From NCBI GenBank assembly GCA_027493525.1, contig JAOSKN010000002.1, positions 248,001 through 312,000 on the forward strand: a stretch of DNA of 64,000 bases, given 5' to 3'. Of the stretch, positions 28,215 through 53,116 are shown in pieces (position 1 is the stretch's first letter; every line of letters begins with the position of its first letter). The notes beneath the pieces were generated by a model. The model saw nothing but the letters and a program-made list of their open reading frames with translations. It was not told the origin of the DNA and made no database searches. Position numbers and translations under genes: made by a program. The stretch comes from Planctomycetota bacterium. GTDB taxonomy: Bacteria; Planctomycetota; SZUA-567; H5-PLA8.

Positions 28215-29687
28215 GTAACCGTTCAGTTCCCTACCGCTGCAAGGAATGCCGGAGCCTTTGCGCCGGTGCGGTGAGCAGCCAAGGCCCTGCGCAGATAGTC
28301 AAGGATGGGACGCTTTTGCAAACGCAAGGTCTGCACGGTGGTCAAGATCCGTTCGGTGAAACGGCAGCCTGCGGTACTGTGATTGCCGAAGCTCCCTTTG
28401 CGCCACAGCACCGCCGGACGCAACATCCGTTCGGCGTGGTTGTTGGTCGGTTCGATGCCTTCGACGGCCGCGAAGGTCCACAGCGCGTCGTAGACTTTCA
28501 GCACGCGTCTGCAAAAGCGCTTGGTTTTGGGGTCCGCGCCCCTGCTTCCGAGCCGGAGCGTTCTCTGGAAACGCAGGCGTATCGGTTGCAACCGCACGTG
28601 TAGCGCGGCACGGTCGCAACGCCGGTCTTTGAAATCCTTCCAGGCCGCAAAGACCGCTCGGGCGGTCTTGCGGCCCGCTCGGCCGAGCGGTTGTGTCGCG
28701 GATCCCAGGTCGATCAACTTCTGAAAATCGCGCTTGAGGTGCGCCCAGCAAATTTGCCGCTGCCGCGGCGGCAGGTGCGCGTAGGCGCCCCAGCGGTCGG
28801 AGCCGAGGATGCCGCAACACGCCCCCAGCAACGCCTTCAGGCCGTCCTTACCCCGGTGGGCGTGAATTTGAAAGGCTGCGACGCTCCGCGTGGCTGCCAC
28901 CCACAGCCAACACAGCTTGCCACCCTTCGCCCAGCCGGTTTCATCCACGTTTTTGAAAGCCGCCCCACGCACGGCCGCCAGCGCCTGCGCGTGAGGCCCT
29001 TCCAGCGCGCCGCTCATCTCGTGTTCGAGCTTGATCACCGTGCCCAGGGATAGCGGGACCCCAAAGACGGTCTCGGCGAGTTCCTGGACGTTGCGCTTGC
29101 TGGCGTGGCCACGCCCACTCAGATACGACAACGCCGCCGCCAGGTTGGGACCCAGCGCATGGGCTTGAATCTCCGGCGGAATCTCCGCGCGGGTGCGGCA
29201 GCCGCAGCACGGACAGGTGCGTGCGTGCCCCTGGTATTCGGTGATTTCGGCCGGCTGCGGCGGCAACTCCGCGACTTGATGCCAAGTCGGAGGCGGATCG
29301 TGTGGCCCTGGCCGCTTAGACAAGGGGGCTTGGCATTCCGCACATACGTGCGGCACGTAATGGACCACGTGCGTGACCCGTTCGGGCGGCAAACGTACAC
29401 GGTGATGGCCCGGATGTCCGGGTTGTCCGCCGGGTTTGCGGCCGCTCGGCTTCTTGGCGGCTGGAGGCTTCTGCCAGGGCGCATCGGACGACGGTGGTTT
29501 GGAAGAGTTAGAGGAATTCTGGTTCAAGCGCTCGGAAAGCCGCTCCAGCTTGGCTTCCAATTCTTCGATCCGCGCCAGGAGCACCGCGCAATTCGGACAA
29601 GCCGGGTTGGGTTTAAGCTCGCGCACACATACAGTATCGGATGGCGTGACGTAAAAAATGAGCCTTCATAGGGGACTGAACGGTTAC
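28215..29687 (-). mobile_element. Complete IS66-family insertion sequence with 8-bp target duplication
   Basis: Left end GTAACCGTTCAGTTCCCTA (from 28215) and right end, read inward on the other strand, GTAACCGTTCAGTCCCCTA (to 29687) are 19-base terminal inverted repeats with one mismatch. CAAGGGTC lies immediately outside both ends (28207-28214 and 29688-29695), a perfect eight-base target duplication as IS66 makes. The 1473-bp element carries only tnpC; tnpA and tnpB accessory genes are absent. The intact duplication points to a recent insertion beside the IS630 relic. Confidence 0.92.
28223..29626 (-). CDS. tnpC: IS66 transposase TnpC
   Basis: A 467-residue IS66-family transposase. The N-terminal leucine-rich coiled coil (LLARIEELEAKLERLSERLN) is followed by the linker NQNSSNSSKPPSSDAPW. 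A zinc-finger-like segment comes next (CAECQAPLSK and RTCPCCGCRTRAE). The DDE core has NVDETGW, GSDRWGAYAH and the Glu of TNNHAERMLRPAVLWRKGSF. The C-terminus (RILTTVQTLRLQKRPILDYL) is intact. The whole frame is uninterrupted and fills the element, so it is likely active. Confidence 0.95.
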   Translation of the reverse strand: MRELKPNPACPNCAVLLARIEELEAKLERLSERLNQNSSNSSKPPSSDAPWQKPPAAKKPSGRKPGGQPGHPGHHRVRLPPERVTHVVHYVPHVCAECQAPLSKRPGPHDPPPTWHQVAELPPQPAEITEYQGHARTCPCCGCRTRAEIPPEIQAHALGPNLAAALSYLSGRGHASKRNVQELAETVFGVPLSLGTVIKLEHEMSGALEGPHAQALAAVRGAAFKNVDETGWAKGGKLCWLWVAATRSVAAFQIHAHRGKDGLKALLGACCGILGSDRWGAYAHLPPRQRQICWAHLKRDFQKLIDLGSATQPLGRAGRKTARAVFAAWKDFKDRRCDRAALHVRLQPIRLRFQRTLRLGSRGADPKTKRFCRRVLKVYDALWTFAAVEGIEPTNNHAERMLRPAVLWRKGSFGNHSTAGCRFTERILTTVQTLRLQKRPILDYLRRALAAHRTGAKAPAFLAAVGN

Positions 29688-29751: not shown

Positions 29752-30954
29752 TTATCGATCGTAGCGGCCGAAACGCTGGATCGTCGCCATGATCAGGCGC
29801 ATGCCGGTGAGGCGTGAGCCGTTGTTGATGGAGCCGGCGGTCGTGAGGACCAGGCCGCGTGAAGCTCGGGCCTGCTCGATGTCCCTGAGGCATTCCAGCA
29901 CGATGGCTTCTTCCCGGTTGCGGCTGAAGGTGAACGGCGCCAGTTGGCCTTGGATCACCGCGCGGGGACAGTGCGCACGAATCTCGGAGACGCTCAGTGT
30001 CGGCCCAAAATTGACACCGCTCAGGTTCAGGCCCATGGGCCCGAAGTAGGGCAACAGGTGCGCCATCGGCGAGTCCGAGTGTTGGTAGCGCCGATCGCCG
30101 GGGTTGGGTGCGTAGCGCTCGAAGATACCCTTCAGGATCGGATACCCAAAAAACTCGTAGAGTTTCGGATTCAGCAGGCAGCAGTTGTCATCGAGGAACG
30201 AGAAGCCGCGCGGCGCCTGGCCGGCCGCGTAGCCGGCTTCCTCGTCCAGCACGCGGGCGATCCCCAGCATGACGTGGAGGATGGCGTCGCGCAGGCGCGC
30301 GGCCAGGTCTGGATTGTCGAGACAGAGAAAGATCAGTTCCTCCGCGCCGTAAATCGAGGTCGCGAAGGTAACTGGGCCGCGTTGGCCTCGGTAGAGCGGC
30401 GGCTTCATGCCGAGCGCGAGCAGGCGCGCCTTTTCCTCGGCCCAATTCGTCGGCAGGATGAAGCTGCGGATATCGCGTGCCATCACCCGATCCAGCAACG
30501 CTTCCAGCTCCGCTTCGTTCTTCGCGACCTGGCGTAGCCAGTACGATTGTCCATGCCACTCGTTGCGAGCCTCGAAGACATCGTGCAATCCTTTCACGGC
30601 GGGATATCGATCCTCGGGCCTCGTCGTCCGGATGGGCACCAGGCTCTTACCCACGATGCGCTCGGCCTTTGCGTTGTACGCGCGAGCGACTTCGTTGGCC
30701 CAAGCCTGATCGTGATGCAGGCGGTAATGGTCCTCGGGGAGGCCCAGCTCGTCGAAGACGCACTCACCGCCCATGCGGATTCCCAGCGCCACCTGGGGTA
30801 TGCCGGCGCCGAAGGGGTCCAGGTGGGCCTGCGCGTCGTCGCGCCAAAACCGATCCACGTCCATCGGAATCAAGCCGTCGTGCGCATGCAGGTCGGCGAC
30901 GAGTTCGCGGGCCGCGGCGGCATGCCCGGTCAGGTCCTGGAGGATGGCGGGCAT
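29752..30954 (-). CDS. URO-D-family methyltransferase-like protein (outlying paralogue)
   Basis: The start at 30954 is set by AAGGAG six bases before the ATG; the frame extends upstream without such a site. The 400-residue product has the URO-D/MtaA-like TIM-barrel pattern: LIPMDVDRFWRDDAQAHLDP, a helix-rich middle, then YQHSDSPMAHLLPYFGPMGL, where H-S-D matches the metal/substrate motif of the array at 44-57 kb. After it come GVNFGPTLSVSEIRAHCPRA and VLTTAGSINNGSRLTG. It is probably a corrinoid-dependent methyltransferase rather than a heme-pathway enzyme. It is the last gene of a minus-strand group behind a sugar-isomerase-like and a GH42-like gene, 193 bases after the latter. Confidence 0.75.
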   Translation of the reverse strand: MPAILQDLTGHAAAARELVADLHAHDGLIPMDVDRFWRDDAQAHLDPFGAGIPQVALGIRMGGECVFDELGLPEDHYRLHHDQAWANEVARAYNAKAERIVGKSLVPIRTTRPEDRYPAVKGLHDVFEARNEWHGQSYWLRQVAKNEAELEALLDRVMARDIRSFILPTNWAEEKARLLALGMKPPLYRGQRGPVTFATSIYGAEELIFLCLDNPDLAARLRDAILHVMLGIARVLDEEAGYAAGQAPRGFSFLDDNCCLLNPKLYEFFGYPILKGIFERYAPNPGDRRYQHSDSPMAHLLPYFGPMGLNLSGVNFGPTLSVSEIRAHCPRAVIQGQLAPFTFSRNREEAIVLECLRDIEQARASRGLVLTTAGSINNGSRLTGMRLIMATIQRFGRYDR

Positions 30955-31147
30955 CGTAAACTCCTTCGCGAAGGCCGTTCGGTCTCTTGTTCCCATCCAT
31001 AGCGTACCCAGCGCCGCCGCGAGATCGTTGGCTGACGATGCAAAGTTGTTGTCCATTCCTGCACGCGGCAACGCCGCGCGAAATCCCGGCAAAGGATGCC
31101 TGGATTGGCCACTATTCAATTGGAGACGGGAAGACGTACCGCACGCA

Positions 31148-33748
31148 TTACCACGCGAAGGTTGCCATGCCGGAGACGCCGCGCATTTCCCAGTACCTGC
31201 CGTAAGGCGAATCGACCCACCCGCCCTCGTATTTTTCGCCCGTGGTGTAGTAGTACACGCACGGGTTGAGCAAAACGTTGGAGTACTCTTCCAGCCCCGC
31301 GACGGGGAAGAAGCGCACCGTCGCGTGTTTCAGCCCCGTCAGCATCCAGCGAAATCGATAGCGGAAGTGCTTGGGGCTGGTGGGCTTCAGGATCAGCGTG
31401 CCGGCGTCCTGTTTGACAAAGACGCGGCATTCGCGGTGGAACCAGCGGTCGAAGCCGAACCAACCCGCGTCGTCTTCGATGCGCGTCTCGCCGCTGGTCA
31501 GCACCGGGATGCCAAGCGGGCTGGAGAGGCCGTACTCGACGCTAGGGTCCAGCGAATAGCCCGTGTAGACAAACCCGTTCCGGTGGCGCGCGACCATGAC
31601 ATGCGTCGCGCGCGGATCGACCCGTTGGCGCCGCACGCGGAAGCCCCAGCCCAGACGGTTCAACACCTGCCGCAGCAGGTTTTCGCCGGGGTAGGCCAGG
31701 CTGGGATCGCGCGCGCGCAGGCTGCGGCCGTGCAGGGCCTCGGACAGCACCGACGGCGTGCCGCGCACCCAACCCAGTTTGCCGCCGCCGGTGGAGCCGA
31801 TCACCGCCGCCGCGCGCGTGACGCCCGACGCGTCGCGGGCCGAGGCCACCACTTCGCAGCCGGCCAGTGCCTTTTCGCGCAGGCTGCCGGCGGCGAAGAC
31901 CGGGTCGTGCATCAGCCGCGGCGGCGGGCCTTTGCGGCAGGTGTCGTCACGCAGCACCGCATCGGCGATTTTGTACGCGTGGTCGATGCCGGCGGGGTCG
32001 ACGAACGGCGCGTCGTTGCGGCCCGGCAGCAGGTAGGCGTCGCCGTCTTCGTGCAACAAATCCAGCGTGCCGTCGATGCCGTCGTCCAGCGCCACGCCCA
32101 GGGCCTCGCGGAAGCGCGCCGAGGCGCGGTGGGTGGGGCCGTAGGCCAGCACGCGGCCGCCGGCGGCCAGGTGATCGAAGAGCGCCCGTTCCCATGCGCT
32201 GTTCGCTTCGGGCACGGGCGTGAGCAGCACGCTGGCGGCGTAGCGCCCCGCCTGTTCGCCCACGCCCCTCACGAGATCGTCGGCGTCCACCACGCCGGCC
32301 AGCGGCAGCCCGCGGTTGACGGCCTCCTGCACGAACAGGTCGCCGAAGAACACTTCATCCAGGCGGTTCTGCGCGAAGGTGTAGCGGTGGTACGCGTCGG
32401 TGGGGTAGACCCACAAGAGGGGCGGCGCGCCGTCGGGTCGCTTGGCCAGGCCGCGCTTGAGGTGCGGGACGGTCTCTTCGGCGAAGGTCTCTGGAATTTC
32501 GCCCCAGGCCGTATCGACGGAGAGAATCTTGACGTCGTTGATCGCGCGCGCCTTGCCGTCGGCGCCGACGCGGCACATGGACATGGACAGATAAATGTCG
32601 TGCGGCGAGCGGTCAAAGCGATCAACCCATGGCGAATTGCACCACCACGGGTCGGACAGGTAGAAGCGCAGCGGGAAGCTTTCGCCGTTGTAGCCCGCGA
32701 TCTGGCTCAGCCAGCCGGCCAGCGCGATGCCGTGGTTGCCGGTGATGGCCGGCCACGGCGTGTTGGGCTGGGGCGTGGTTTCGCCGGCCACTTTATAGAT
32801 GGCCTGATAATCGGTGGCGTGGTTGACCAGGTTCATGCCGGCGCTGAAGTCGGTGCCGCGGTTTTCGATGCGGGCCGTCGGGCATTCGGCGCGGAAGCGC
32901 TTCCAGAAATCGACCACCGCGTCGGCCAGCGCGCGGTTGCCTTCGGCATTGAACTTTTCGCCGTCGAAGAATTGGCCCTTGGCGCCCCACGCGTAGGGGC
33001 TGCGGCCGAAGCCGAACGAGTTCGAGAACCAGATGTAATCGAAGCCCAGGTCGTTGAGGTAATGCCGCGTCTGTCGGCCCAGGAAGGCGCCGAAGGGCAG
33101 GTCCTGCGGCAGGCCTTCGGGGAACCCGGCAAAGGCCTGCGGGTCGGCGTTCATGTGGCCGGTGCAGTCGATCATGCGCATGGCGCCGCCGCCGGTGATG
33201 AGGATCTCGGTGTGCTTTTCGTATCGGAACGGCGCGACGGAAAATTCGCTGCCAGGATCGAAGGGAATGCCGACTTCCACCGGCACGCCGCAGACGCGGC
33301 GTACCGCGCGCTTCATCGCCGCGACGATGCGTTTGACGTCGCCGTAGGTCATCTCGGGCGCGTCGGGCCGGTACAGGTAACCGCGCGTGACGATGGATTC
33401 CTTCAGCGGGTCGTCCTTTTCGCTCACCTTATAGGGCGTTTCTGCGTAGCCCATCCACTTGGCCCATTCCACGCGGTCGTCCAGCCGTCCGCGGTATTCC
33501 AGGATGTCGGTGCCGTCGCCCAGCCAGAAGAGAACCGACACGCGACGGGCGTGCTTCAGCAGCGGCCACCACTGCCGCGCCGCGTCTTCCATCACCCGTT
33601 CGACGTTCGCGTCGTCGTGCGGGACGAACGGCTTGGGGCTGATCTCCATCGTCACGTTTTGCAAAGGCTGGATGCGGTCGCGCGCGCCGCCGGGCGGCAG
33701 CGGCGCCACGGCGGGCTGGATGCCTGGCGTAGTCATGGCCGTACTCAT
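31148..33748 (-). CDS. Large GH42-like (TIM barrel plus GATase-like) protein
   Basis: The ATG at 33748 overlaps the isomerase stop (ATGA), giving an 866-residue protein. I do not recognise a named family. The first 450 residues read as a glycosidase-like TIM barrel (VTMEISPKPF, LGFDYIWFSNSFGFGRSPYA, WLSQIAGYNGESFPLRFYLS). Residues 460-620 look like the GATase-like trimerisation domain of GH42 beta-galactosidases (GLPLAGVVDADDLV, then LFDHLAAGGRVLAYGP). The C-terminal 200 residues are strand-rich (GFVYTGYSLDPSVEYGL, then FVKQDAGTLILKPTS). No signal peptide, so it should act on imported sugars in the cytoplasm. Catalytic acids could not be assigned. Confidence 0.7.
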   Translation of the reverse strand: MSTAMTTPGIQPAVAPLPPGGARDRIQPLQNVTMEISPKPFVPHDDANVERVMEDAARQWWPLLKHARRVSVLFWLGDGTDILEYRGRLDDRVEWAKWMGYAETPYKVSEKDDPLKESIVTRGYLYRPDAPEMTYGDVKRIVAAMKRAVRRVCGVPVEVGIPFDPGSEFSVAPFRYEKHTEILITGGGAMRMIDCTGHMNADPQAFAGFPEGLPQDLPFGAFLGRQTRHYLNDLGFDYIWFSNSFGFGRSPYAWGAKGQFFDGEKFNAEGNRALADAVVDFWKRFRAECPTARIENRGTDFSAGMNLVNHATDYQAIYKVAGETTPQPNTPWPAITGNHGIALAGWLSQIAGYNGESFPLRFYLSDPWWCNSPWVDRFDRSPHDIYLSMSMCRVGADGKARAINDVKILSVDTAWGEIPETFAEETVPHLKRGLAKRPDGAPPLLWVYPTDAYHRYTFAQNRLDEVFFGDLFVQEAVNRGLPLAGVVDADDLVRGVGEQAGRYAASVLLTPVPEANSAWERALFDHLAAGGRVLAYGPTHRASARFREALGVALDDGIDGTLDLLHEDGDAYLLPGRNDAPFVDPAGIDHAYKIADAVLRDDTCRKGPPPRLMHDPVFAAGSLREKALAGCEVVASARDASGVTRAAAVIGSTGGGKLGWVRGTPSVLSEALHGRSLRARDPSLAYPGENLLRQVLNRLGWGFRVRRQRVDPRATHVMVARHRNGFVYTGYSLDPSVEYGLSSPLGIPVLTSGETRIEDDAGWFGFDRWFHRECRVFVKQDAGTLILKPTSPKHFRYRFRWMLTGLKHATVRFFPVAGLEEYSNVLLNPCVYYYTTGEKYEGGWVDSPYGRYWEMRGVSGMATFAW

Positions 33749-35193
33749 CGAATCACCTCGCAGTCGACGTCCAGCAGCCGCGCGATGGCGGCCAGCGTGC
33801 CGGCTTCGTGGCCGATGCCCAGCGCGAAGTGGTGCGTGGGGCCGGCGGCCACCCATTTCTTCAGGAAGGTGCGCACGTCCGGGGGGAATTTGCCGTGGGT
33901 GTTGGTGTTGCCCGTGGGCGGGATGGGCCCGGGCAGGCTCTCGCCTTCGGCGATCACGAAGCGGAAGCGCCCGCCCCTGCCGACGCCGATGGACAGCATG
34001 GTGATGGGCCCCGTCTTGAGGCTGAATTCGACCGATGCGCCCGAGCCCGGCTTGCCGTGGTACTTCTTGAGCGACCGGATGACGGGTTTGCCTTCGGCGA
34101 TGCCGATGTGGTGCGGTCCGTCGTGGCCCACCAACACCGTGTCGCGTTCGAAGTCGACGGGGTGGAATTCGGCGAAGCTGCCGCCCATGCCCAGGCGGTC
34201 CATGATGAACATTGCCACGCAGGTTTTGATGTCGAATTCGCCGCACATGGGGAAGCCCGCGCCGGTCAGCAGCGAGTTGCCGACGATCAGGTTCGTTACC
34301 AGCGTGCGCATTTCGCCGCCGGGCTCGGCTTCGTAGTAGTACGCCAGCCCGTCCAGCTTTTTCTCGGCGATGAAACGGTCCAGCGCCACGGCCGCGCGCG
34401 CGGCGGTGTGCAGGTCCTTTTCGGTCAGTTTGGTCGTGACCGGGTCGCTGACCGGGTCGGGCGTGTCGAAGAAGTCCAGGATCGCCTGCTTCTTGGCTTC
34501 GACAGCCTTTGCGTCAGGCTCCAGGTAATGCCGCATGATGTCGTCGGGTTCGCACTGCGCGACGTGGCAGCCGAACGTGGCGGCCAGGGCCGTCGGGTCG
34601 GTGTGCATGTCGTACATCGCTTCCAGTACGTGGCCCATGTGGCCGATGCGCGCGCGGCGCAGCCCGCCCACGGCCTTGGCGATGCCGCACCAGCGGGTGA
34701 TTTCGCGGTCGGCGACCGGGTCGTTTTCCAGCGTGCCCAGGATCACCTCGGGGATGCGCTTGCCCATGCGCATCGCCACGCCGGTAAATTCCGGAACCGA
34801 ACAGAAATCGTCGTTGCATAACTGCATGTAGGTCGACGCTCGCGCGTAGTTCATCGCCTTCAGCGGCTGCAGCGCAGCGAGTACGATCGGCACGTCCAGG
34901 TTGCGGATGATGGGCGCGAATGTCGAGCTGGTGGCGTAGGTCACCATGTCGACGAACAGCACGTCCACGTCGGCGGCGCGGATCTTCGGCACCGCGCCCC
35001 AGCCGCTTTGGGGGTCGTCGATCAGCCCGAAGTCGGCGACTTCGACGCCTTCGCGCTGAAGGCGCTTGATCAGCACCGCGGTCTTGCGATGCATCTCGTC
35101 CAGCAGGCCCTCGAACTGGCTCCAGTAAGTATGGTGACCGACGGAGATCAAGCCGACCCTTGCATGCAGGGGTTTCAGACGTTTGAGTCGCAC
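33745..35193 (-). CDS. L-arabinose/L-fucose isomerase-family protein
   Basis: A 482-residue sugar-isomerase-fold protein with a GTG start after AAAGGACGAGAAAT. The N-terminal FucI/AraA-like domain opens VGLISVGHHTYWSQFEGLLD with the central strand DVDVLFVDMVTYATSS. The middle and C-terminal part contains YYYEAEPGGEMRTLVTN, the candidate metal-ligand regions GFPMCGEFDIKTC and FAEFHPVDFERDTVLVGHDGP, and THHFALGIGHEAGTLA. Family members interconvert aldoses and ketoses with Mn2+. The exact sugar cannot be told. First gene of the minus-strand group, divergent from the RACo gene across a shared promoter region. Confidence 0.85.
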   Translation of the reverse strand: MRLKRLKPLHARVGLISVGHHTYWSQFEGLLDEMHRKTAVLIKRLQREGVEVADFGLIDDPQSGWGAVPKIRAADVDVLFVDMVTYATSSTFAPIIRNLDVPIVLAALQPLKAMNYARASTYMQLCNDDFCSVPEFTGVAMRMGKRIPEVILGTLENDPVADREITRWCGIAKAVGGLRRARIGHMGHVLEAMYDMHTDPTALAATFGCHVAQCEPDDIMRHYLEPDAKAVEAKKQAILDFFDTPDPVSDPVTTKLTEKDLHTAARAAVALDRFIAEKKLDGLAYYYEAEPGGEMRTLVTNLIVGNSLLTGAGFPMCGEFDIKTCVAMFIMDRLGMGGSFAEFHPVDFERDTVLVGHDGPHHIGIAEGKPVIRSLKKYHGKPGSGASVEFSLKTGPITMLSIGVGRGGRFRFVIAEGESLPGPIPPTGNTNTHGKFPPDVRTFLKKWVAAGPTHHFALGIGHEAGTLAAIARLLDVDCEVIR

Positions 35194-35460
35194 TATTTCT
35201 CGTCCTTTCTCGTAAGGTCTTTCGCAGAGGGCGCATCAACTGGGATAAGCTTGGTAGCCACGCATGGCAACGGACGACTTTTGCCAATTCCTGCCCCAAA
35301 ATCCTCCTTGGGCGCACAATGGGCGCACAATCTCAGTTGACACGACGCTAATATGGGATAAGTATATATGGAAGTACATTAAATGGCCATGGACCGCTTG
35401 GTCTCAGCCGGACTAGGCTGTCTGTGTTCAAAAGTCGGGTTCGTTCTGGGTGCCCAACCC
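35194..35460. promoter_or_regulatory. Divergent promoter region with an 11-base tandem direct repeat
   Basis: Between the isomerase-like and RACo genes, GGGCGCACAAT occurs twice head to tail (35310-35320 and 35321-35331), right before a perfect -35 box TTGACA (35337-35342). AT-rich sequence follows (ATAAGTATATATGG) and can supply a -10, though the best match is only approximate (AAGTAT at spacing 17). The tandem boxes abutting the -35 look like an activator or repressor site for the plus-strand operon. Confidence 0.5.
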
Positions 35461-37368
35461 ATGTCGACACTGCGTATCCAACCCGACGAGCGGAGCATCA
35501 GGGTCTCTTCTGGGCAGACCGTTTATGAGGCCTGCCGGAATGCGGGTATCTTCATTCGATCTGCCTGTGGCGGCATGGGCACGTGCAATAAGTGCTTAGT
35601 GCGTGTGGTTCAAGGAGTTGCCGAGATTTCGACTCTGGATCGGCGTAATTTGCCACCTCGCGATTTGGAAGAGGGATACCGGCACTCCTGCATGTTTCGG
35701 ATTGTTGAAGACACCACCGTTGAAATCCCACAGGCCACACGCCCATACGGCGAGCGTATCCTGGCCGAGGGCAAGGGTTTCGCGGCCTTCTCGGGCTCGG
35801 CACTGGTGCGGCAGCACTACCGGAAGTTCGATCCGCCTTCGCGCGAAGACGGGGTAGGGGACTTCGAACGTCTCAAGCTGGCGCTTGGCTCCGCAGGCCG
35901 GGGCTTGACAGCCGATTTACTTGTCCTGCGCGCGTTGCCCGGCGTGCTACGCGAATCCGGTTTCGAGATCACCGCCACCTGCGCGGGCTCGCGCCTGCTG
36001 GCGGTTGAAGGCGGCGACCGCCGCGGTACGGCCTACGGATTGGCCTTCGACCTTGGCACGACCACCGTGGTCGGTTACTTGGTGGACCTCGTGCGCGGCC
36101 GGACGCTCGCCGTAGCCAGCCGTTCGAACCCGCAGGCGGTTCTGGGCCAGGACGTGATCGCGCGCGCGCAGCACGCGGGCCAAGGCGAGGCGGAGCGCCG
36201 CGAACTGCGGACGCCAATCGTGGACTGCCTACAAGCCATCGCGGCGGAGTGTGCGGCCCAGGCCGACGTGCCCCTCGAACGCTGCTTCGACGTCGCCATC
36301 GGCGGCAACACGATCATGCTGCACCTGCTGCTCGGCGTGAATCCGCATCCGATCACGGTCGTTCCGTTCGCCCCGGCCTGGACGGGCGCGCGCGAACTCG
36401 CCGCCGCCGACCTGGGGCTGGCCATACATCCGCTGGCGCGGGCGTACCTGCTGCCTTGCGTGGCCGGGTACGTGGGCGGCGACATCACGGCGGGCCTGCT
36501 GGCCACCGGGCTATGCGAGGGCGAGGAACTGACGCTCTTCGTCGATATCGGCACCAACGGCGAAGTGGTCCTGGGTAATCGCGAAGGCTGGCTGGCCTGC
36601 GCCGCGCCCGCCGGCCCGGCCTTCGAAGGGGCCCGGATTTCCTGCGGCATGACTGCGATGAGCGGCGCCATCGACGCCGTGACCTACGTGCCGGATGCGG
36701 CGGACCTGGAGCTTCACGTCCTTGGCGACGCGCCGCCGCGCGGCATGTGCGGCACCGGCCTGATCGACGGCGTAGCCGCGTTCCTCGAGACCGGCATGAT
36801 CGATGAACTGGGCCGGATCGTTTCTCTCGCCGAAGCCCGCTCTCGCCTGCCGCCCAAGCTGGCCGCGCGGATTCAGTTCGGCGAGAAGGGTGCGCGGATC
36901 GTACTGGTTCCCGCGGAGCGGACGTCCGATCGGCGCCGGGATCTGTGCCTTACGCAACGCGACATTCGCGAACTGCAACTGGCCAAGGGGGCGATTCGCG
37001 CGGCGGTGGACATGGTCCTGAAGTTGCGCGGCGTCGCGCCCGACGCCGTTAAACGCGTGCTGATCGCCGGAGGCTTCGGGAGTTTTGTCCGGCCGGCTTC
37101 CGCGCGCGCGATCGGACTGTTCCCGGCGAGCTTCACCGAGGGCCGGATGGAGTTTGTCGGCAATACAGCCGGGCTGGGGGCGTGCTTCTGTCTAGCGCAC
37201 CTCGAAGCGCGTTCGCGGATTGAAAAGCTTGCCCGGCAAACGGACTACGTGGAACTGTCGGCTCAACCGGACTTCACGACCGTATTCTCTGAGGCCATGG
37301 TCTTCCCGGAGCCGGAAGACCTCATTCAGAAATCCGAGCGTATCAGGTCGGACACGACCGGATCTTGA
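35461..37368 (+). CDS. RACo-type reductive activator of corrinoid proteins (2Fe-2S / DUF4445)
   Basis: A 635-residue activator. From the ATG at 35461 an N-terminal 2Fe-2S ferredoxin domain has cysteines C36, C42, C45 and C77 (SACGGMGTCNKC, then HSCMF). A linker and the ASKHA-type DUF4445 ATPase follow, with phosphate loops AFDLGTTTVVGYLVD and VDIGTNGEVVLGN plus AGGFGSFVRPASARAIG. The enzyme spends ATP to push an electron onto inactive Co(II) corrinoid proteins, restoring Co(I). An upstream ATG at 35383 would add 26 residues and has a somewhat better ribosome site, but family members begin at the ferredoxin. It is the only activator in the window. Confidence 0.92.
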   Translation: MSTLRIQPDERSIRVSSGQTVYEACRNAGIFIRSACGGMGTCNKCLVRVVQGVAEISTLDRRNLPPRDLEEGYRHSCMFRIVEDTTVEIPQATRPYGERILAEGKGFAAFSGSALVRQHYRKFDPPSREDGVGDFERLKLALGSAGRGLTADLLVLRALPGVLRESGFEITATCAGSRLLAVEGGDRRGTAYGLAFDLGTTTVVGYLVDLVRGRTLAVASRSNPQAVLGQDVIARAQHAGQGEAERRELRTPIVDCLQAIAAECAAQADVPLERCFDVAIGGNTIMLHLLLGVNPHPITVVPFAPAWTGARELAAADLGLAIHPLARAYLLPCVAGYVGGDITAGLLATGLCEGEELTLFVDIGTNGEVVLGNREGWLACAAPAGPAFEGARISCGMTAMSGAIDAVTYVPDAADLELHVLGDAPPRGMCGTGLIDGVAAFLETGMIDELGRIVSLAEARSRLPPKLAARIQFGEKGARIVLVPAERTSDRRRDLCLTQRDIRELQLAKGAIRAAVDMVLKLRGVAPDAVKRVLIAGGFGSFVRPASARAIGLFPASFTEGRMEFVGNTAGLGACFCLAHLEARSRIEKLARQTDYVELSAQPDFTTVFSEAMVFPEPEDLIQKSERIRSDTTGS

Positions 37369-37543
37369 ACACGAAAGTCCCGTATGGGGCTTCGGGGCGG
37401 GTTTTTCGTCGGTGCACGATGCGCGCTATGAGGGGCGGTGATCGAAATATAGTATATTTACATCGAATTATCCTATTGCGGCGGCTATCGGATGGGAGTT
37501 GAATATTCAGAGATTCAATCCAGGGCCAACGAGGGACCGATTC
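37369..37543. promoter_or_regulatory. Intergenic promoter region of the methyltransferase operon
   Basis: After the RACo stop, CCCG and CGGG can pair around 37390-37412, with TTTTT following: a weak terminator candidate. An AT-rich stretch at 37446-37476 (AATATAGTATATTTACATCG) is the best place for a promoter of the corrinoid-protein operon, in an otherwise GC-rich region. No sharper operator is visible. Confidence 0.4.
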
Positions 37544-38185
37544 ATGTCCAGTGAGGCGATTTTCGAGCAGCTTCGGGATGCCGTCCTTAACGGTAAGCGC
37601 AAGGACGCCGTCAAGCTGTGCGAAGACGGCTTGAAGGCCGGGGTGGCTGGCAAGGATCTGCTGACGCGGGGCCTGTTGGTGGGCATGGAAGAAGTGGGCC
37701 GGCGTATGCGCAGCGAAGAGTACTTCATTCCCGAAGTCCTGGTCGGCGCACGGGCCATGCAGTCGGCGTTGGAGGTCATTCGCGAGGACTTGGCGCAAAA
37801 CCCCGCCGCGCAGGTGGGCAGGGTGGTCATCGGCACCGTATCGGGCGACTTGCACGACATTGGCAAGAACTTGGTCGCGATCATGCTCACCGGCGCCGGC
37901 TTCGAAGTCATCGATCTGGGAATCGACGTGACCCCCGCGCGCTTCGTCAGCACCGCGCTGGAACGCAAGGCCGACGCGGTGGCCATGTCCGCGTTGCTGA
38001 CCACCACCATGGTGAACATGAAAGAGGTGGTGGATGAACTCCGGAAGGCGCACTTTGAGGGCAAGGTTGTCATTGGCGGCGCGCCGGTGACGCAAGAGTT
38101 CGCCGACAAAATCGGCGCGGATCTCTATGCCGGGGACGCCTCCGAAGGCGCGGAGAAGTTGAAGGCCCTGCTGCAAGCGGCCTGA
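37544..38185 (+). CDS. Corrinoid (B12-binding) methyltransfer protein, MtaC/MtbC/MtgC type
   Basis: A 213-residue protein. The B12-binding-2 helical cap spans about residues 1-88 (AIFEQLRDAVLNGKRKDAVK, GLLVGMEEVGRRMRSEEYFI). The Rossmann B12-binding domain carries the base-off/His-on motif D102-L-H104-D-I-G107 in GTVSGDLHDIGKN, then SALLTTTM and VIGGAPVTQEFADKIGAD. H104 should ligate cobalt from below. It would accept methyl groups from the many methyltransferases downstream and hand them to the MeTr. The start at 37544 is preferred over a TTG 45 bases upstream because the family begins here. It is the only corrinoid protein gene in the window and heads the long operon. Confidence 0.94.
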   Translation: MSSEAIFEQLRDAVLNGKRKDAVKLCEDGLKAGVAGKDLLTRGLLVGMEEVGRRMRSEEYFIPEVLVGARAMQSALEVIREDLAQNPAAQVGRVVIGTVSGDLHDIGKNLVAIMLTGAGFEVIDLGIDVTPARFVSTALERKADAVAMSALLTTTMVNMKEVVDELRKAHFEGKVVIGGAPVTQEFADKIGADLYAGDASEGAEKLKALLQAA

Positions 38186-38232: not shown

Positions 38233-39588
38233 GTGAAGCAGGCAGGGCCGTCGACGGTCTGGGACCGTCTCATGCTGGCCGCCGAATGGCCCTTCAAGCG
38301 ATACTTTTTTAATTGCCAGAAGTGCGGGCAGTGCCTGCTCAGCCAGACGGCCATGGTCTGCCCGATGAATTGTCCGAAGGGTCTGCGCAACGGCCCCTGC
38401 GGCGGCACCATCGAGGGACGTTGCGAGGTCTATACGGATCGGCCTTGCGTATGGGTGCGCATTCACGATAAGTCGGCCGGCGGCGCGGACGATCCCTGCC
38501 AGGTACGCGCGCCCTTCGACGAGCATCTGCTCAACACATCGAGTTACTGGAACCTCCTGACAGGCGCCGACCAAGCCACGCGCAAGCCGCGCGCGCTCGC
38601 GCAGGAACTCCGCACGTTCCGAGCCTCGCCCCAACGTACCGGCAGCCGTTTCGAACGACGGTTGCGCGGAGGACAACCGATCTTGACCGGCGAACTGCGC
38701 TGCCCGCGCAGCGCGCGCGGCATGCGCCGGGTCCGAGAGGAGATCGAAGCCCTCCTGCCGCTTGTCGATGCGCTGACGACCACGAGTAACCAAGGCGGCG
38801 TTCCGACGCGCTCGACGCTGGACGTCTCGCGCGAGGTTCACAAGCAGGGCGGTTGTGCGATCCCGACGCTCTGCGGGCGCGATATGAACCCCGCCGCGTT
38901 CGTCAGGAATCTCGTCGAGATCCGGGACGCCGGCCTGCAGGACGTCTTCTGCGTTACCGGCGATTGGCCGGCGCACGAGCCGCGGCAGCCGGTCTCCGTG
39001 CCGGAGACCCAGCGGCGCGCGTTCCGCATGGACGGCGCGCAGATGATCCACGAGGCGCGCAGCCTGGGGACGCTGGGCCGGGCGGCGTTCAGCCCGTTGC
39101 CCGCGGGAGCGGCCGCGCCCAGCCTCTTCGTCGGCGGCGCGATCAATCCCAATTCGGCGCCCCGCGAGGCGGTCATCCGGAGACTGGCGCAGAAGGCGGC
39201 CTGCGGCGTCGATTACATTTTCACCCAGGCCGTCTGCGACGTCGGGGTTTTCACGGACTTCCTGCGCGGATTTGAGACGTCCGGACTGCGGCCGCGACTC
39301 TTCGTCGTGGCTTCGGTGCCGGTCGTGGGGAGCCTGCGCGGAGCCGAGATTTTGAACGCGTTGCCGGGCGTGCGCCTGCCGGCGGCGGTGCTCGAACGTT
39401 TCGCGCAGGCCTCGGACATCGCGGCGGAAGGGAGTACCTGGACGCTCGAGGTGCTGGACGCCTTGGCCGGGTCCGTGGACGGCTTCCACCTGATGAATTT
39501 CGGGATGGCTTTGCCGCGGATGTGCGAAGTCCTGGAGCGCGCGCGCGGAAAGCTGACGCGCACGCCGAGCGCGCGGCAGGTCGCATAG
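38233..39588 (+). CDS. metF: MetV-MetF fusion: methylenetetrahydrofolate reductase with zinc/Fe-S-type N-terminal domain
   Basis: A 451-residue fusion with a GTG start. Residues 1-100 are a MetV-like MTHFR_C domain with the cysteine cluster NCQKCGQC, then CPMNCPKGLRNGPCGG and CEVY. Residues 130-435 are a MetF TIM barrel (TGELRCPRSARGMRRV, TLCGRDMNPAAF, VFCVTGDWPAHEP, GAAAPSLFVGGAINPNSAPR, DYIFTQAVCDVGVF). In acetogens MetV and MetF are separate subunits of the reductase that interconverts methyl- and methylene-THF. A fusion next to a corrinoid protein suggests it oxidises the methyl-THF formed by the next gene product, or in reverse supplies methyl groups. Confidence 0.88.
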   Translation: MKQAGPSTVWDRLMLAAEWPFKRYFFNCQKCGQCLLSQTAMVCPMNCPKGLRNGPCGGTIEGRCEVYTDRPCVWVRIHDKSAGGADDPCQVRAPFDEHLLNTSSYWNLLTGADQATRKPRALAQELRTFRASPQRTGSRFERRLRGGQPILTGELRCPRSARGMRRVREEIEALLPLVDALTTTSNQGGVPTRSTLDVSREVHKQGGCAIPTLCGRDMNPAAFVRNLVEIRDAGLQDVFCVTGDWPAHEPRQPVSVPETQRRAFRMDGAQMIHEARSLGTLGRAAFSPLPAGAAAPSLFVGGAINPNSAPREAVIRRLAQKAACGVDYIFTQAVCDVGVFTDFLRGFETSGLRPRLFVVASVPVVGSLRGAEILNALPGVRLPAAVLERFAQASDIAAEGSTWTLEVLDALAGSVDGFHLMNFGMALPRMCEVLERARGKLTRTPSARQVA

Positions 39589-39609: not shown

Positions 39610-40494
39610 ATGGCCACCGTGATTCTGAAGGGCAGGAACCGGGAAGTTTCGATCTCGTCGGACGACCCCACGCGAATCATTGGCGAGCGCTGCAACGCGC
39701 TGGGCTACAAGGCGGTCAAGCGCGCCGCGGAGGAAGGGCGCCTGGACGAAGTCGCGCGCCGCGCGCGCCAGCAGGTCCAGGCCGGCGCGGACGCCGTAAA
39801 CGTCAACATGGTGGGCACTTCGATTCCGGAAGAGAACCTGCTTCCTCGCGCCGTCGAAAGGATCGCGGTCGCGGTCGACGTGCCGCTCTCCATCGATTTC
39901 GGTTCGCTCGCCGCGCTGGAGGCCGCTCTCAAGGTCGCGCCCGGCCGCGCGCTGATCAATTCCACCAACGGCGAGATCCGCAAGCTGGATCCGGTGCTCG
40001 AACTGGCCGCCAAGTACCGCGCGGCGGCGATCGCTCTGGCCTGCGACGAGAACGGCATCCCGCCCGACGCCGCAGCGCGGGTGCGAATCGTGGAGCGCAT
40101 CCTCAAGCGCGCGGAGACCTTCGGCCTGGGCGCGGCCGACCTGCTGGCCGACACCGTATGCCTGGGGGTGGGCACGGATCCCTCCGCGGGCCCGGTCACC
40201 TTTGAGGCCTGCCGAAGGATCAGCGGCGAATTGGGGCTCAACGTGGTCCTGGGCGCCAGCAACGCGGCCTATGGCCTGCCGCTGCGCAAATACCTGAACG
40301 CCTCCTACCTGGCGCTGGCGATCGGCTCGGGCATGAACGTGGCGCTGACCGACCCCACGCTGCCCGAACTGCGCTGGGCGATCCTCGGCGCCGACGCCTG
40401 CATCGGCCGCGACGAATTCTGCGCGAACTTCATCCGCCAGTTCCGCCTGGAGGAAAAAGCCCAGGCGGCCAAGGAGGTCACGGCCAACGCATGA
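39610..40494 (+). CDS. Methyltetrahydrofolate:corrinoid methyltransferase (AcsE/MtgA-like)
   Basis: A 294-residue pterin-binding TIM barrel. Diagnostic segments are RIIGERCNALGYKAVK, QVQAGADAVNVNMVG, VPLSIDFGSLAALEAAL, LINSTNGE, LACDENGIPP, ADTVCLGVGTDPSAG and VVLGASNAAYGLP, which follow the AcsE/MeTr/MtgA plan. It transfers a methyl group between the corrinoid protein and tetrahydrofolate. Here the direction is probably methyl-corrinoid to THF, as in MtgA of glycine-betaine users. It overlaps the amidohydrolase start (ATGA) and lies 21 bases after MetV-MetF, so the C1 acceptor steps are translated together. Confidence 0.92.
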   Translation: MATVILKGRNREVSISSDDPTRIIGERCNALGYKAVKRAAEEGRLDEVARRARQQVQAGADAVNVNMVGTSIPEENLLPRAVERIAVAVDVPLSIDFGSLAALEAALKVAPGRALINSTNGEIRKLDPVLELAAKYRAAAIALACDENGIPPDAAARVRIVERILKRAETFGLGAADLLADTVCLGVGTDPSAGPVTFEACRRISGELGLNVVLGASNAAYGLPLRKYLNASYLALAIGSGMNVALTDPTLPELRWAILGADACIGRDEFCANFIRQFRLEEKAQAAKEVTANA

Positions 40495-42573: not shown

Positions 42574-44006
42574 ACGACCATGCAGGGGGCGCGTGGTGCG
42601 AAGTGCTGCCCGGCGAGCAGCGCGAACGCATTCACCGGCTCGGTCTCAGGATCTTGGAAGAGGCAGGCGTGAAGGTGGACGATGCCGCCGTCCAGGAGAC
42701 GTTGCGCAAGGCCGGCGCGCGTATGGGCGAAGGGGCCGGCCGCTTCAGACTGCCCGCGGGTTTGATCGCGGATGCGTTAGCCTCCGCTCCGAAGACGGCC
42801 CCAATCGCCAACCGCCTGGGCGAGGTCGTGGAAGTCAGCGCCGGGGGGCCTTCGACCTTCTGGAGCGGCGCCGCCCTGCGCCGGGTCGATGGGCGCGAGG
42901 GCCGGGCGGAACGGATCGACAGCGCTTGGCTGGCGCGATTCACGCGTCTCGTCAGCCGCCTGCCCAACACGACGGCGGTCGTGGGCACCGCGCTGTGCGA
43001 CATTCCCCCGCGGTGCAACGACTTCGCCGGTTTCCGCGTGATGGCGCGCCATACGCGCAAGCACCTGCGACCCCTGATGTTCTCGGAACATGGCGGCTCG
43101 GCCATCGTCGAAATGGGCCGGGTGCTGGCCGGCGGTACGGCGCTAAAGGACCACCCCCTTTTCAGCGTGGGCTACTCGGTCCTCACTCCACTGCACTGGG
43201 AAGCGACCGCGCTGGCGTTGTTTCGGCTCACGGCCGGGGACGGCATTCCCGTGATGATCAACAGCGAGCCGATGGCCGGCGCTTCGGCTCCGGTCACGCT
43301 GGCGGGCGCCGTGGCGCTGGGCCATGCCGAGATCCTATCGGGCATCGCGATCAACCAGTTGCTCGAGCCGGGAAGGCCCTGCATCTACAACCTCGGCTTC
43401 GCGCACGTCATGGACATGCGTTCGGCGCTGGCCTTGACCGGCGCCGCCGAAAACGGCTTACTCGGCGCGGCCGGCGCCGAGATGGCGGCGTTTCTGAAGC
43501 TGCCGTCGGCGTCCTGGATGTGCACCGACGCGCTGACGGCCGATCACCAAGCCGCATATGAAAAAACCCTTACGGCCTGGGCGCACGCCGCGGCGGGCGT
43601 GAATGTCATCTGGGGCATAGGTCAACTGGAGAGCGAGGCGTCTCTGAGCCTTTTACAGGCCGTCGTCGACGACGAGATCGCCGGAGCCGTTTTGCGTTTC
43701 AAGCGAGGCATCCCCGTCAACGACGAGCATCTGGCGGCGGATCCAATCCTCCGCCGTGCCGCGGGCGGGTCTTATCTGCACGAGGAACATACGGTGAACC
43801 ACTTTCGGACCGAGATACGCCCTTCAACCCTCTCGTTCCGCAACCGCCGCGAGGCTTGGGAACGAGACGGCCGTCACGACGCATACACGCGAGCCGAGGC
43901 GCGCGTCAAGACGCTGTTGGCGGAAGAGGACGAACCTTGCGTCACCACGGAGCAGGATCGAGAGATGGAGCGCATCGAGCGGCGATTCCGCGAACGGCTG
44001 GGCTGA
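42570..44006 (+). CDS. MttB-family methyltransferase (non-pyrrolysine, MtgB/MtpB-like)
   Basis: A 478-residue MttB-superfamily (PF06253) TIM barrel. Features are LRILEEAGVKVDDAAVQETL near the N-terminus, FRVMARHTRKHLRPLMF, MINSEPMAGASAPVTLAGAV, NQLLEPGRPCIYNLGFAHVM and the C-terminal HEEHTVNHFRTEI, followed by a WERDGRHDAY helix. The reading frame has no internal TAG, so unlike trimethylamine MttB it contains no pyrrolysine. Non-Pyl members demethylate quaternary amines (glycine betaine, proline betaine, carnitine) onto a corrinoid protein. It is the only MttB here, at the head of the URO-D series. Confidence 0.92.
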   Translation: MNDHAGGAWCEVLPGEQRERIHRLGLRILEEAGVKVDDAAVQETLRKAGARMGEGAGRFRLPAGLIADALASAPKTAPIANRLGEVVEVSAGGPSTFWSGAALRRVDGREGRAERIDSAWLARFTRLVSRLPNTTAVVGTALCDIPPRCNDFAGFRVMARHTRKHLRPLMFSEHGGSAIVEMGRVLAGGTALKDHPLFSVGYSVLTPLHWEATALALFRLTAGDGIPVMINSEPMAGASAPVTLAGAVALGHAEILSGIAINQLLEPGRPCIYNLGFAHVMDMRSALALTGAAENGLLGAAGAEMAAFLKLPSASWMCTDALTADHQAAYEKTLTAWAHAAAGVNVIWGIGQLESEASLSLLQAVVDDEIAGAVLRFKRGIPVNDEHLAADPILRRAAGGSYLHEEHTVNHFRTEIRPSTLSFRNRREAWERDGRHDAYTRAEARVKTLLAEEDEPCVTTEQDREMERIERRFRERLG

Positions 44007-44032
44007 CGTCAGACGGCGAAGGAGTCCATGGC

Positions 44033-45151
44033 ATGACGCGTCGGGAGCGTTTGCTCATAGCGTATCGAGGCGGGATGCCGGATCGCACGCCCGTGGCCAT
44101 TCGAGGCGTGTATCCGTTCAATCCCGAATGGGTCGCGCGCAAACACGAGAGTTACGCGCCCTTGATCGACTACGTGCGCGAAAACACGGACATCGTCGAG
44201 TTATTCGGCCTGCCGCGAGGATTCCTGCTGAACGACATTTCCGGCCTTCCCCAAGGCCGGGAAGAACACGTCCTCGACGGCGACCGAATCGCCTACAGTC
44301 GCTGGATCGAGACGCCCAGAGGCCGGATCGACCAAGTTGTCGATTATTCGCGAGCACAACGCCTGTCCATGGTCCGCAAGCCGTGGGTCGAAACCAGGGA
44401 TGACCTGGAAAAGGTGCTCTCCATCCCCGAGCGGTCGGTGCGCCCCGACTTGTCCGCATACCGTGAACGGCGCGCGTCCATAGGCGAACGGGGCATTTGC
44501 CTTCCCGAGATTCCCTGCGCGGCCTCGTTCGTGCACGAACTGTTGGATACCGAGGGGCTGGCCCTGTGGAGCCGCGAGGAGCGCGGAACCGTCCTCGAAC
44601 TGCTCGATCGCTTCAACGCGCGCCTGATGGCCTACGTGCGTTATCTCTTGGAACACGGCGTGGGCCCGGTGCTGGCGCTTTTGGGTGAGGAGTACATTAC
44701 ACCGCCCCTGCATTCGCCGCTGGACTTTCAGGAGTTCGTCGTGGCGTACGACAAGCCAATCGTGGAGGCGATTCATGAGTACGGCGTCATCTGCCGTATC
44801 CATTGCCACGGCCGCATCGGCAGGCTCCTCGACGGCTTCCTGGACATCGGCGTGGACGCACTTCATCCGGTCGAGGAGCCGCCCATGGGGGACCTGACGC
44901 TCCAATCCTTTCGCAAAAGAGCGGGCAACCGCATCTGCATCAAAGGCGGCGTGCAGATTGGGGACCTGTACGAAAAAAACGCGGCGGAGGTCGCCGCCCA
45001 TTGCCGCGGCGTGATCGAACGCGCGGGACGCTGCGGCGCGTTGATCCTGGCGCCGTCGGCATCGCCGTATTGGCCCGAACTGACGCCGGCCATGTTCGAC
45101 AACTACCGAGCGATGATCGATTCCGTGCACGAATGCGAGGTCTCGCGATGA
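44033..45151 (+). CDS. URO-D-family corrinoid methyltransferase paralogue 1
   Basis: This 372-residue protein opens a run of eleven URO-D-fold genes. The family shares an N-terminal RERxLxAxxGxxPDRxPV helix-turn (here RERLLIAYRGGMPDRTPV) and a TIM barrel with metal-ligand loops late in the sequence. Fold relatives include uroporphyrinogen decarboxylase and the corrinoid methyltransferases MtaA and MtbA. Eleven diverged copies next to a corrinoid protein point to methyl transfer. In this copy the central metal loop is RIHCHGRIGRLLDG (H-C-H rather than H-x-C-G) and the C-terminal loop is ILAPSASPYWPELTP with no Cys. The ATG at 44033 follows GAAGGAGTCC. It overlaps the next gene by four bases. 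Confidence 0.85.
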   Translation: MTRRERLLIAYRGGMPDRTPVAIRGVYPFNPEWVARKHESYAPLIDYVRENTDIVELFGLPRGFLLNDISGLPQGREEHVLDGDRIAYSRWIETPRGRIDQVVDYSRAQRLSMVRKPWVETRDDLEKVLSIPERSVRPDLSAYRERRASIGERGICLPEIPCAASFVHELLDTEGLALWSREERGTVLELLDRFNARLMAYVRYLLEHGVGPVLALLGEEYITPPLHSPLDFQEFVVAYDKPIVEAIHEYGVICRIHCHGRIGRLLDGFLDIGVDALHPVEEPPMGDLTLQSFRKRAGNRICIKGGVQIGDLYEKNAAEVAAHCRGVIERAGRCGALILAPSASPYWPELTPAMFDNYRAMIDSVHECEVSR

Positions 45152-46227
45152 ACGCCGTCTTGAACTCCCGCGACCGGGTCCGCCGCGCCTTGCGCCGCGA
45201 ACAACCCGACCGCGTTCCGCGTTTCGATCATTTCTGGCAGGACGCCGCTCGAGCCCTGCGTTCCCAGGCCGGCGCGCCGCCCGGAGCCGATCTCAACGAC
45301 CTCTTCGATTTCGATATCCGTGCGCTCTCTTTCGATTGGACCGCGCGCCTGCCCCGGACCGTGCTCCGCGAGGACGAGGTTTCGCGGGTCTACCGGGATG
45401 CCAACGGCGCGACGATTCGCGAGTTCAAGAACAGCCAGACCACCGGCGAGCACATCGATTTCGCAGTGAAAGATCCGGACGTCTGGCGCCAGTCGTTTCG
45501 CGCGCGCTACGCTTTCGACCGCACCCGCGTCGACTGGGAAGCGTCCCTGCGCGCCTACCGGCGCTGGCGCGAAGAGGGCCGTTACATCGTGCTGAGCTGC
45601 CGCGAACCGTTCGAGGCCGCGTGGCCGCTTGTCGGACCGGTGGCCCACATGCTGGGTTACGCCGAAGAGCCCGAGTGGATTCAGGATATCTACGAAGTGC
45701 AGACGAAGCAGGTCGAGGACGCCTGGGTGGCCTTTCGCGAGGCGGGCATCGAATTCGACGGCGCATGGTTCTGGGGCGACATCGCATACAAGAACACCAG
45801 CATGGTCTCGCCGAGACAGTACGTCGAGCTTCTCATGCCCTTCCACAAACGGCTGTGCGGCTTGGTCCATGGCTCAGGGGGCGAAACGATTCATCACAGC
45901 GACGGCAACTTAAAGGGGCTCATTCCCAAGCTGATCGATGCCGGATTCGACTGCCTGCAGCCGTTGGAAGTCAAGGCGGGGATGGACGTGCGCGAGTTGA
46001 AGTCCGAGTACGGCGCGCGCCTGTCCTTCATGGGCAACATCGACGCCCGGCTGTTCCAGGCCAACGACGGGGAGGGGCTGGAACGCGAGATTCGCGAGAA
46101 GATCACGGCGGCCAAGGAGAGCGGAGGATACGTATACCACTCCGATCACTCCGTCCCGCCTGGCGTCACGCTGGACACCTACCGTCATGCCCTGTCCTGC
46201 GTGGACAAGTATGGCCGCTACGACTGA
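45148..46227 (+). CDS. URO-D-family corrinoid methyltransferase paralogue 2
   Basis: 359 residues; starts MNAVLNSRDRVRRALRREQP at an ATGA overlap. The metal loop is of the HHSDGN type (ETIHHSDGNLKGLIPKLI), the helix after it reads DAGFDCLQPLEVKAGMD, and the C-terminal loop YHSDHSVPPGVTLDTY carries a second His/Asp set. No Cys occurs at either ligand position, so any metal would be held by His and Asp. The DGAWFWGDIAYKN segment in the centre marks the substrate side of the barrel. The mid-sequence differs strongly from paralogue 1, suggesting a different methyl donor. Confidence 0.85.
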   Translation: MNAVLNSRDRVRRALRREQPDRVPRFDHFWQDAARALRSQAGAPPGADLNDLFDFDIRALSFDWTARLPRTVLREDEVSRVYRDANGATIREFKNSQTTGEHIDFAVKDPDVWRQSFRARYAFDRTRVDWEASLRAYRRWREEGRYIVLSCREPFEAAWPLVGPVAHMLGYAEEPEWIQDIYEVQTKQVEDAWVAFREAGIEFDGAWFWGDIAYKNTSMVSPRQYVELLMPFHKRLCGLVHGSGGETIHHSDGNLKGLIPKLIDAGFDCLQPLEVKAGMDVRELKSEYGARLSFMGNIDARLFQANDGEGLEREIREKITAAKESGGYVYHSDHSVPPGVTLDTYRHALSCVDKYGRYD

Positions 46228-46242
46228 GAGAGGAAGGGAGCG

Positions 46243-47337
46243 ATGACGAGCGCCCCGGGAGCCGCGTTGGCGTCCGAGTTGAAGCCGGACGCCGAGCAAG
46301 CCGTTGCGCGAATGGCGGCGTGGTGGGAGGGAGAAATCCTGGACCGCCCAACGCTCATGGTCACCGCGCCGCGCGCTCGGCGAGCGGCGTTGCCCGAAAA
46401 ATCCCACGCCACTTGGCGGGAGCGGTGGCTTGACGTCGAGTTCGTGGTCGAGCGCGCCTGGGAAGCCGCGCGAAACACCTACTATGGCGGGGAATGCTTG
46501 CCCATTTACCATCCCAATCTCGGGCCCGATGTCATGGCCGCCAGCTTGGGCAGCGGCTTGACTTTCGCCGAACATACCTCCTGGTCCGAGCCGTTCTTGG
46601 ATGACTGGGACGGCCTCAACATGCTCGAATTCGAGCCCGATCATGAATATGTGCGCGCCATCGTGGCCATGACCCGGCATGCCTGCGAGTTGGGCCGCGG
46701 CAAATGGCTTGTGGGTATCACCGATCTGCACCCCGGCGGCGACCAATGCGCGGCGTTGCGTGGCGCGCAACAGTTGTGCCTGGACTTGGTCGACGATCCG
46801 GAGCGTGTTCGCGCCTTGATGAAGCGCTTGCGCCCGACGTTCTATCGTTGGTACGAAACACAGCGCGAAATCCTGCTCGCTGCTGGCCAAAAACTCACCA
46901 CCAGCTGGCTGCGCTTATTCGCGGAGGGGCGCTACTACATCCCCTCCAACGATTTTTCCTGCATGATCGCCCCCGCCGTTTTCGAGGAGTTCTTCCTGGA
47001 CGAGATCCGCGAGGAAGTCGCCTGGCTGGATCGCTCCATCTATCACCTCGACGGCCCCATGGCGCTGAGGCATCTGGATGCCATCCTGTCGATCGAAGAG
47101 TTGGACGCAGTGCAATTCGTCTACGGAGCTGGAAACGGCCCCGCGACCCGTTGGATTCCCGTTTTTCAGAGAATCCAGGTGGCCGGGAAGAACCTCCATA
47201 TCAGCGCCGAGGGCGGCGAATTGGACGCATTGATGGCCGCGTTGCGTCCGGAAGGCGTCATGATCCAGATTCACGCCCGCACGCCGGAAGAGGCGGAGTC
47301 GTTGATCGGAAAGGCGCGCCAATGGCCGAAGCCCTGA
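46243..47337 (+). CDS. URO-D-like methyltransferase paralogue 3 (divergent subtype)
   Basis: 364 residues. It lacks the usual RERxLxA opening; instead it starts with a helical segment and AWWEGEILDRPTLMVTAPRA, the hallmark of a separate URO-D-like subtype with links to the cobalamin-independent methionine synthase fold. The central motif is SIYHLDGPMALRHLDAIL, then VQFVYGAGNGPATRWIPVF and LHISAEGGELDALMAAL. No HxC or terminal Cys is present. It reads through the start of paralogue 4 by 16 bases. Possibly a structural or substrate-binding variant rather than a zinc methyltransferase. Confidence 0.75.
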   Translation: MTSAPGAALASELKPDAEQAVARMAAWWEGEILDRPTLMVTAPRARRAALPEKSHATWRERWLDVEFVVERAWEAARNTYYGGECLPIYHPNLGPDVMAASLGSGLTFAEHTSWSEPFLDDWDGLNMLEFEPDHEYVRAIVAMTRHACELGRGKWLVGITDLHPGGDQCAALRGAQQLCLDLVDDPERVRALMKRLRPTFYRWYETQREILLAAGQKLTTSWLRLFAEGRYYIPSNDFSCMIAPAVFEEFFLDEIREEVAWLDRSIYHLDGPMALRHLDAILSIEELDAVQFVYGAGNGPATRWIPVFQRIQVAGKNLHISAEGGELDALMAALRPEGVMIQIHARTPEEAESLIGKARQWPKP

Positions 47338-52995: not shown

Positions 52996-53116
52996 AAAGG
53001 CGGCGCCGTGCATGAACGCAGGTTGGATTCCCATGACCGCCACGCGCATGGATACGGGTAGGATGCGGAACGTCGCTGGTCGCATTCCCTTTCTTCCACG
53101 CCGCGGAGGAACGTCC

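Follow-up and report, generated by a model that had tools for sequence, protein, structure and literature searches.

A planctomycete locus in which three minus-strand genes stand back to back with a corrinoid activase gene appears to combine two modules: a widespread pair of sugar-use genes, C and B, and an accessory methyltransferase gene of the uroporphyrinogen decarboxylase (URO-D) superfamily, A, placed together beside a corrinoid array in a single genus. We give this reading, drawn from sequence comparison, about an even chance.

Organization of the locus

The stretch of DNA analysed (the window, 64,000 nucleotides) spans positions 248001-312000 of contig C2 in a 7.46-Mb planctomycete genome. 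The relevant features, in window coordinates, are as follows.

29752-30954, minus strand: A, URO-D superfamily protein of 400 residues, planctomycete subfamily (Pfam URO-D, orthologue alignment)
30955-31147, minus strand: spacer between B and A, containing a block that the sister species shares (comparison with that species)
31148-33748, minus strand: B, 866 residues, GH42-type clan GH-A fold (AlphaFold model and Foldseek)
33745-35193, minus strand: C, AraA/FucI-superfamily sugar isomerase of 482 residues (Pfam Arabinose_Iso_C, aligned AraA residues)
35194-35382, no strand assigned: divergent promoter region between C and RACo (TTGACA box conserved in the sister species)
35383-37368, plus strand: RACo-type corrinoid reductive activase, probable start at 35461 (Pfam RACo_C_ter, 2.5e-74)
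37499-38185, plus strand: methyltransferase-type corrinoid protein (Pfam B12-binding and B12-binding_2; NCBIfam MtgC-like)
38233-39588, plus strand: methylenetetrahydrofolate reductase-like protein (MTHFR) with a zinc-finger-like N-terminal region (Pfam MTHFR and DUF5981)
39610-40494, plus strand: methyltetrahydrofolate:corrinoid methyltransferase-like protein (MTR; Pfam Pterin_bind, 1.1e-17; NCBIfam PRK07535 domain)

Downstream from MTR lie an amidohydrolase gene, an MttB homologue and the array itself, about ten URO-D genes. C, B and A are all open reading frames with a strong codon-position bias in GC content. The stop codon of C overlaps the start codon of B in the sequence ATGA. C and the RACo gene diverge from a gap of 189 bp, and the TTGACA box upstream of RACo is common to the window genome and the sister species. 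Thus, the arrangement reported in the preliminary description, a minus-strand trio divergent from RACo, is confirmed: all three reading frames are real, and the sister species has the same layout.

Translation of A most likely begins at the ATG at position 30954, which is preceded by a Shine-Dalgarno sequence (AAGGAG) and lies near the point where the orthologues begin; on both counts the TTG at 31119 is too early. This start leaves a spacer of 193 nucleotides between B and A. The spacer contains a non-coding block shared with the sister species, GCGTGCAG.A.TGGACAA.AA.TTTGCA, which may serve to regulate A. We also considered a sigma-54-like site within this spacer and rejected it, its spacing being one base too long. 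The gene that follows A (28223-29626) is transposase-like and, judged by eye, resembles IS66.

Families and folds of the three proteins

The assignment of C to the AraA/FucI-like isomerases holds. The protein matches Pfam Arabinose_Iso_C (1.6e-9, 38.1 bits against a cut-off of 25), and its matches in the PDB are L-arabinose isomerases. Residues E319, E342 and H357, together with the HH pair near 449-450, align with the catalytic and metal-binding residues of E. coli AraA (E306, E333, H350 and H450); they are invariant in the complete homologues. C therefore has in common with AraA both the C-terminal domain and the catalytic and metal residues. It scores far too low for the NCBIfam equivalog of L-arabinose isomerase proper (58.7 bits, where 622 are required) and likewise for that of the sulfoquinovose isomerase SftI (47.3 bits; equivalog cut-off 700).

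B matched no family in Pfam or NCBIfam. Its AlphaFold model (pLDDT 87.7) finds GH42 beta-galactosidases as top Foldseek matches (E 1e-15, with TM-scores of only about 0.4-0.5), and GH164 is also among the structural matches. In GH42 an acid/base glutamate ends strand 4 and a nucleophilic glutamate ends strand 7. With strands assigned by DSSP order, without superposition, the 31 homologues of B have an invariant Ser242-Asn243 in place of Asn-Glu where strand 4 ends, and an invariant Asp412 in place of Glu where strand 7 does; Asp164, Glu168 and Asp366 are also invariant in this set. The overall fold thus matches that of the GH42 enzymes and clan GH-A, but the sequence family match and the canonical glutamates are missing. 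Of the earlier designation "866-residue GH42-like", the length and the fold stand; because the catalytic glutamates of clan GH-A are absent, membership in GH42 fails, and on sequence and model B is predicted to be GH42-like in fold only.

A exceeds the Pfam URO-D cut-off (9.5e-8, 31.9 bits against 23.9), which bears out the family call, and carries the motifs QRGPVT, DDN, QHSDSxM and TAGSINxGSR. The N-terminal RQAGR motif that marks uroporphyrinogen decarboxylase proper (HemE) is missing. We also reject A as one more paralogue of the array: in an alignment with ten array members it shares 12-20% identity with them. Its AlphaFold model matches UROD and a methyltransferase of M. mazei; since the model is weak (pLDDT 66.5, built from 12 mostly distant sequences), the Foldseek ranking says only that A has the URO-D fold. 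A profile search with the A subfamily against PDB sequences gave no match. The H-x-C...C zinc motif of the MtaA/MtbA type is absent from A, which has QHSDS and TAGSIN at the corresponding places.

In the array, which extends from 43991 to 56703, about ten URO-D proteins follow one another in a row and are very unlike each other. The metal-site column of ten members reads HCHG, HSDG, HLDG, HTDG, HDDG, HVCG, HNHG, HMCG, HACG and DCDG, as if the proteins served many methyl donors. A was said to keep the HSD motif of the array. It does have H-S-D-S, but H-S-D-G occurs in only one of the ten aligned array proteins, the rest having H-x-[C/D/H]-G or D-C-D-G. One array gene (51900-53000) appears split over two frames, with open reading frames at 51491-52801 and 52459-52995 and a URO-D match at 52585-52986; a frameshift, decay or an assembly error would each account for this.

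Distribution of the sugar pair and of the URO-D gene

A single scan of GTDB genome contigs with C yielded 265 relatives, and the best 80 loci were analysed by tblastn. These 80 come from Verrucomicrobia, Lentisphaerae, Kiritimatiellae, Planctomycetes, Armatimonadetes, Omnitrophota, Firestonebacteria, Latescibacterota and Propionibacteriaceae. In 34 of them B is found no more than 10 kb from C, and in 29 it is on the same strand. A, RACo, the corrinoid protein, MTHFR and MTR turned up at a single one of the 80 loci, L024 of the sister species; the 79 loci from other genera had none of the five within 10 kb of C. Of the 80 loci, 52 are at least 15 kb long, and not all span 10 kb on both sides. 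RACo was not found in 17 of 50 genomes that carry C, including three of Tessaracoccus and two of Cerasicoccus. With corrinoid genes absent nearby and RACo missing from these genomes, C-B is best described, from its distribution, as a general sugar unit that would not require corrinoid methyl transfer. The preliminary description had reckoned that occurrence of the trio in many genomes lacking corrinoid methyltransferases would speak against it; this is what we find for the B-C pair. All three genes together were seen in one genus only.

Recurrent neighbours of C include IclR, AraC and LacI regulators, GH106 rhamnosidases, GH2 enzymes, WbsX-like proteins, MFS transporters, sulfatases and SGNH hydrolases. 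Among these, the GH106, GH2 and sulfatase genes hint at the substrate of C and B, and no more narrowly than that. At three C loci outside the genus (L053, L087 and L073) a URO-D protein of another subfamily is encoded within 10 kb, its identity to array members being 47%, 46% and 38% respectively, with no corrinoid genes nearby.

The two members of the pair have evolved differently in the genus. C is not a divergent branch (66% mean identity to the other homologues, against 69% among those others), and its substrate is probably an ordinary sugar, since this identity is kept to homologues at loci without A. B does branch off: its mean identity to the others is 34%, against 40% among them. Glu342, found in 28 of 31 B homologues, is Ala in this genus, as if the specificity had changed.

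Among 392 genomes of the phylum, orthologues of A (about 50-74% identity) occur in eleven besides the window genome, and the stretches read around those outside the genus contain neither B nor a close relative of C. A and C co-occur above chance (four genomes, hypergeometric p 6e-5, three of the genomes being from one family). Elsewhere the subfamily of A is encoded either by itself or together with a PhyH dioxygenase and an AraC regulator. In genomes G351 and G203 the genes for these two partners lie immediately before A, G165 has a comparable arrangement, and a 34%-identical clade in G205 and G288 also has PhyH next to it. RACo was not found in two A-bearing genomes, G203 (98% complete) and G087, whose only strong B12-binding_2 domains lie in frames of MetH length; a stand-alone methyltransferase-type corrinoid protein was not found in either.

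These modules raise the possibility that A is a URO-D-family enzyme that uses no corrinoid protein, for instance a partner of PhyH in another reaction, and that its adjacency to RACo is incidental. The two RACo-less genomes and the missing zinc motif agree with such an enzyme. The zinc argument is offset by the existence of URO-D methyltransferases without zinc, such as CdmB (PMC13222342). Moreover, 10 of the 12 genomes with A have RACo, compared with 132 of all 392 (hypergeometric p 5e-4), and outside the class 6 of 8 have it (p 0.009), both values ignoring relatedness and genome size; PhyH/URO-D pairs at a separate locus of G351 also adjoin a corrinoid protein and RACo. We regard a corrinoid-independent A as unlikely, if well worth keeping in mind. 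The enrichment of RACo, the setting of the G351 pairs and the URO-D family itself make a methyl-transfer role for A plausible on genomic grounds, one that may not be strictly tied to the RACo system.

This separate G351 locus (L192, G351:C1:5362000-5381999) combines several PhyH/URO-D gene pairs with AraC regulators and with genes for a RACo homologue and a corrinoid protein. The repeated pairing of an oxygen-dependent enzyme with corrinoid-type methyltransferases there is odd. PhyH-family matches number 63 in the window genome and 76 in the sister species, and one PhyH gene of the window genome immediately precedes a URO-D gene that is not part of the array (L007:1483-3508).

Proposed joining of the modules and the case for methylated sugars

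A search for the trio with RACo in other genomes, as the preliminary description suggested, found C-B-A and divergent RACo in just one, the sister species of the same genus (L024), and nowhere outside the genus. Order and orientation are the same in both species, at 69-82% protein identity. In the same family, one genome (G003) lacks B and carries A and C on separate contigs; another (G004) has the corrinoid array and lacks orthologues of A, B and C. As the full arrangement occurs in one genus only and these two relatives lack it, the genomic evidence fits a recent joining of modules, whether or not these work in a single pathway.

The activities and substrates proposed here for A, B and C we infer from families, folds, neighbourhoods and distributions. 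C and B, translationally coupled, would form the first module, a widespread sugar-use pair in which B, an enzyme of the GH-A clan, probably acts on a small glycoside, releasing or modifying a sugar, and C would isomerize the aldose to a ketose. The second module would be A, most likely a methyltransferase acting on some methylated compound. It may hand the methyl group to the corrinoid protein encoded next door, which RACo would keep reduced; from there the methyl may travel onward through MTR and MTHFR. The juxtaposition of both modules beside the corrinoid array would be specific to the genus.

The surroundings recall known methyl-transfer systems. A URO-D-type protein, a corrinoid protein, a methyltetrahydrofolate:corrinoid transferase and RACo adjoin here as do their counterparts in the corrinoid O-demethylases of acetogens (methyltransferase I, corrinoid protein, methyltransferase II and activase) and in CdmBCA (PMC13222342). 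Unlike in those systems, A lies on the opposite strand, where it forms a unit of its own with the sugar genes, and some genomes that lack RACo have an orthologue of A as well. Type 1 mlp gene clusters likewise contain several URO-D proteins, a corrinoid protein and an activase, but have no tetrahydrofolate methylase within 20 kb (Kountz and Balskus, PMC10418091). Such an enzyme, absent there by definition, is encoded here by the MTR-like gene at 39610-40494, and the array was rejected as a cluster of that type.

The connection between the modules could be a pathway for O-methylated sugars, as first proposed for this locus: B would cleave a methylated glycoside, A would transfer the ether-bound methyl to the corrinoid protein, and the sugar set free would be isomerized by C. 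The family calls for this pathway hold, its adjacency is conserved in the genus, and a full methyl-disposal set adjoins. A is commoner in RACo-bearing genomes, B has diverged in the genus where C has not, and different URO-D proteins lie within 10 kb of C at the three loci mentioned above. The conservation of the C-B-A/RACo order in two species at 18-27% protein divergence is also a counterpoint to two separate modules and argues for joint use in the genus; the above-chance co-occurrence of A and C and the divergence of B count on the same side. Against the pathway, B-C occurs elsewhere with no corrinoid genes nearby, also in RACo-less genomes; A occurs elsewhere with neither B nor C nearby, and two A genomes lack RACo; C remains 66% identical to homologues at A-less loci; and the sequences carry no feature of a methylated-sugar substrate. 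Its support comes from adjacency within a single genus and a trend in co-occurrence, and we consider the pathway, though coherent, improbable. A narrower version, in which this genus has re-tuned the sugar pair to methylated glycosides (hence the divergence of B and the loss of Glu342) and A is a corrinoid-dependent sugar O-demethylase feeding the array, strikes us as quite improbable. Literature searches on planctomycete URO-D arrays, on URO-D/PhyH pairs and on corrinoid demethylation of sugars returned nothing on point among the papers covered.

Whether or not methylated sugars are involved, C-B is an uncharacterised sugar unit of two genes that is common in Verrucomicrobia, Lentisphaerae, Planctomycetes and Tessaracoccus. 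A marks a URO-D subfamily repeatedly paired with PhyH dioxygenases. A corrinoid route for methyl-ether sugars, if true, would amount to an oxygen-independent removal of methyl groups from algal or plant glycans.
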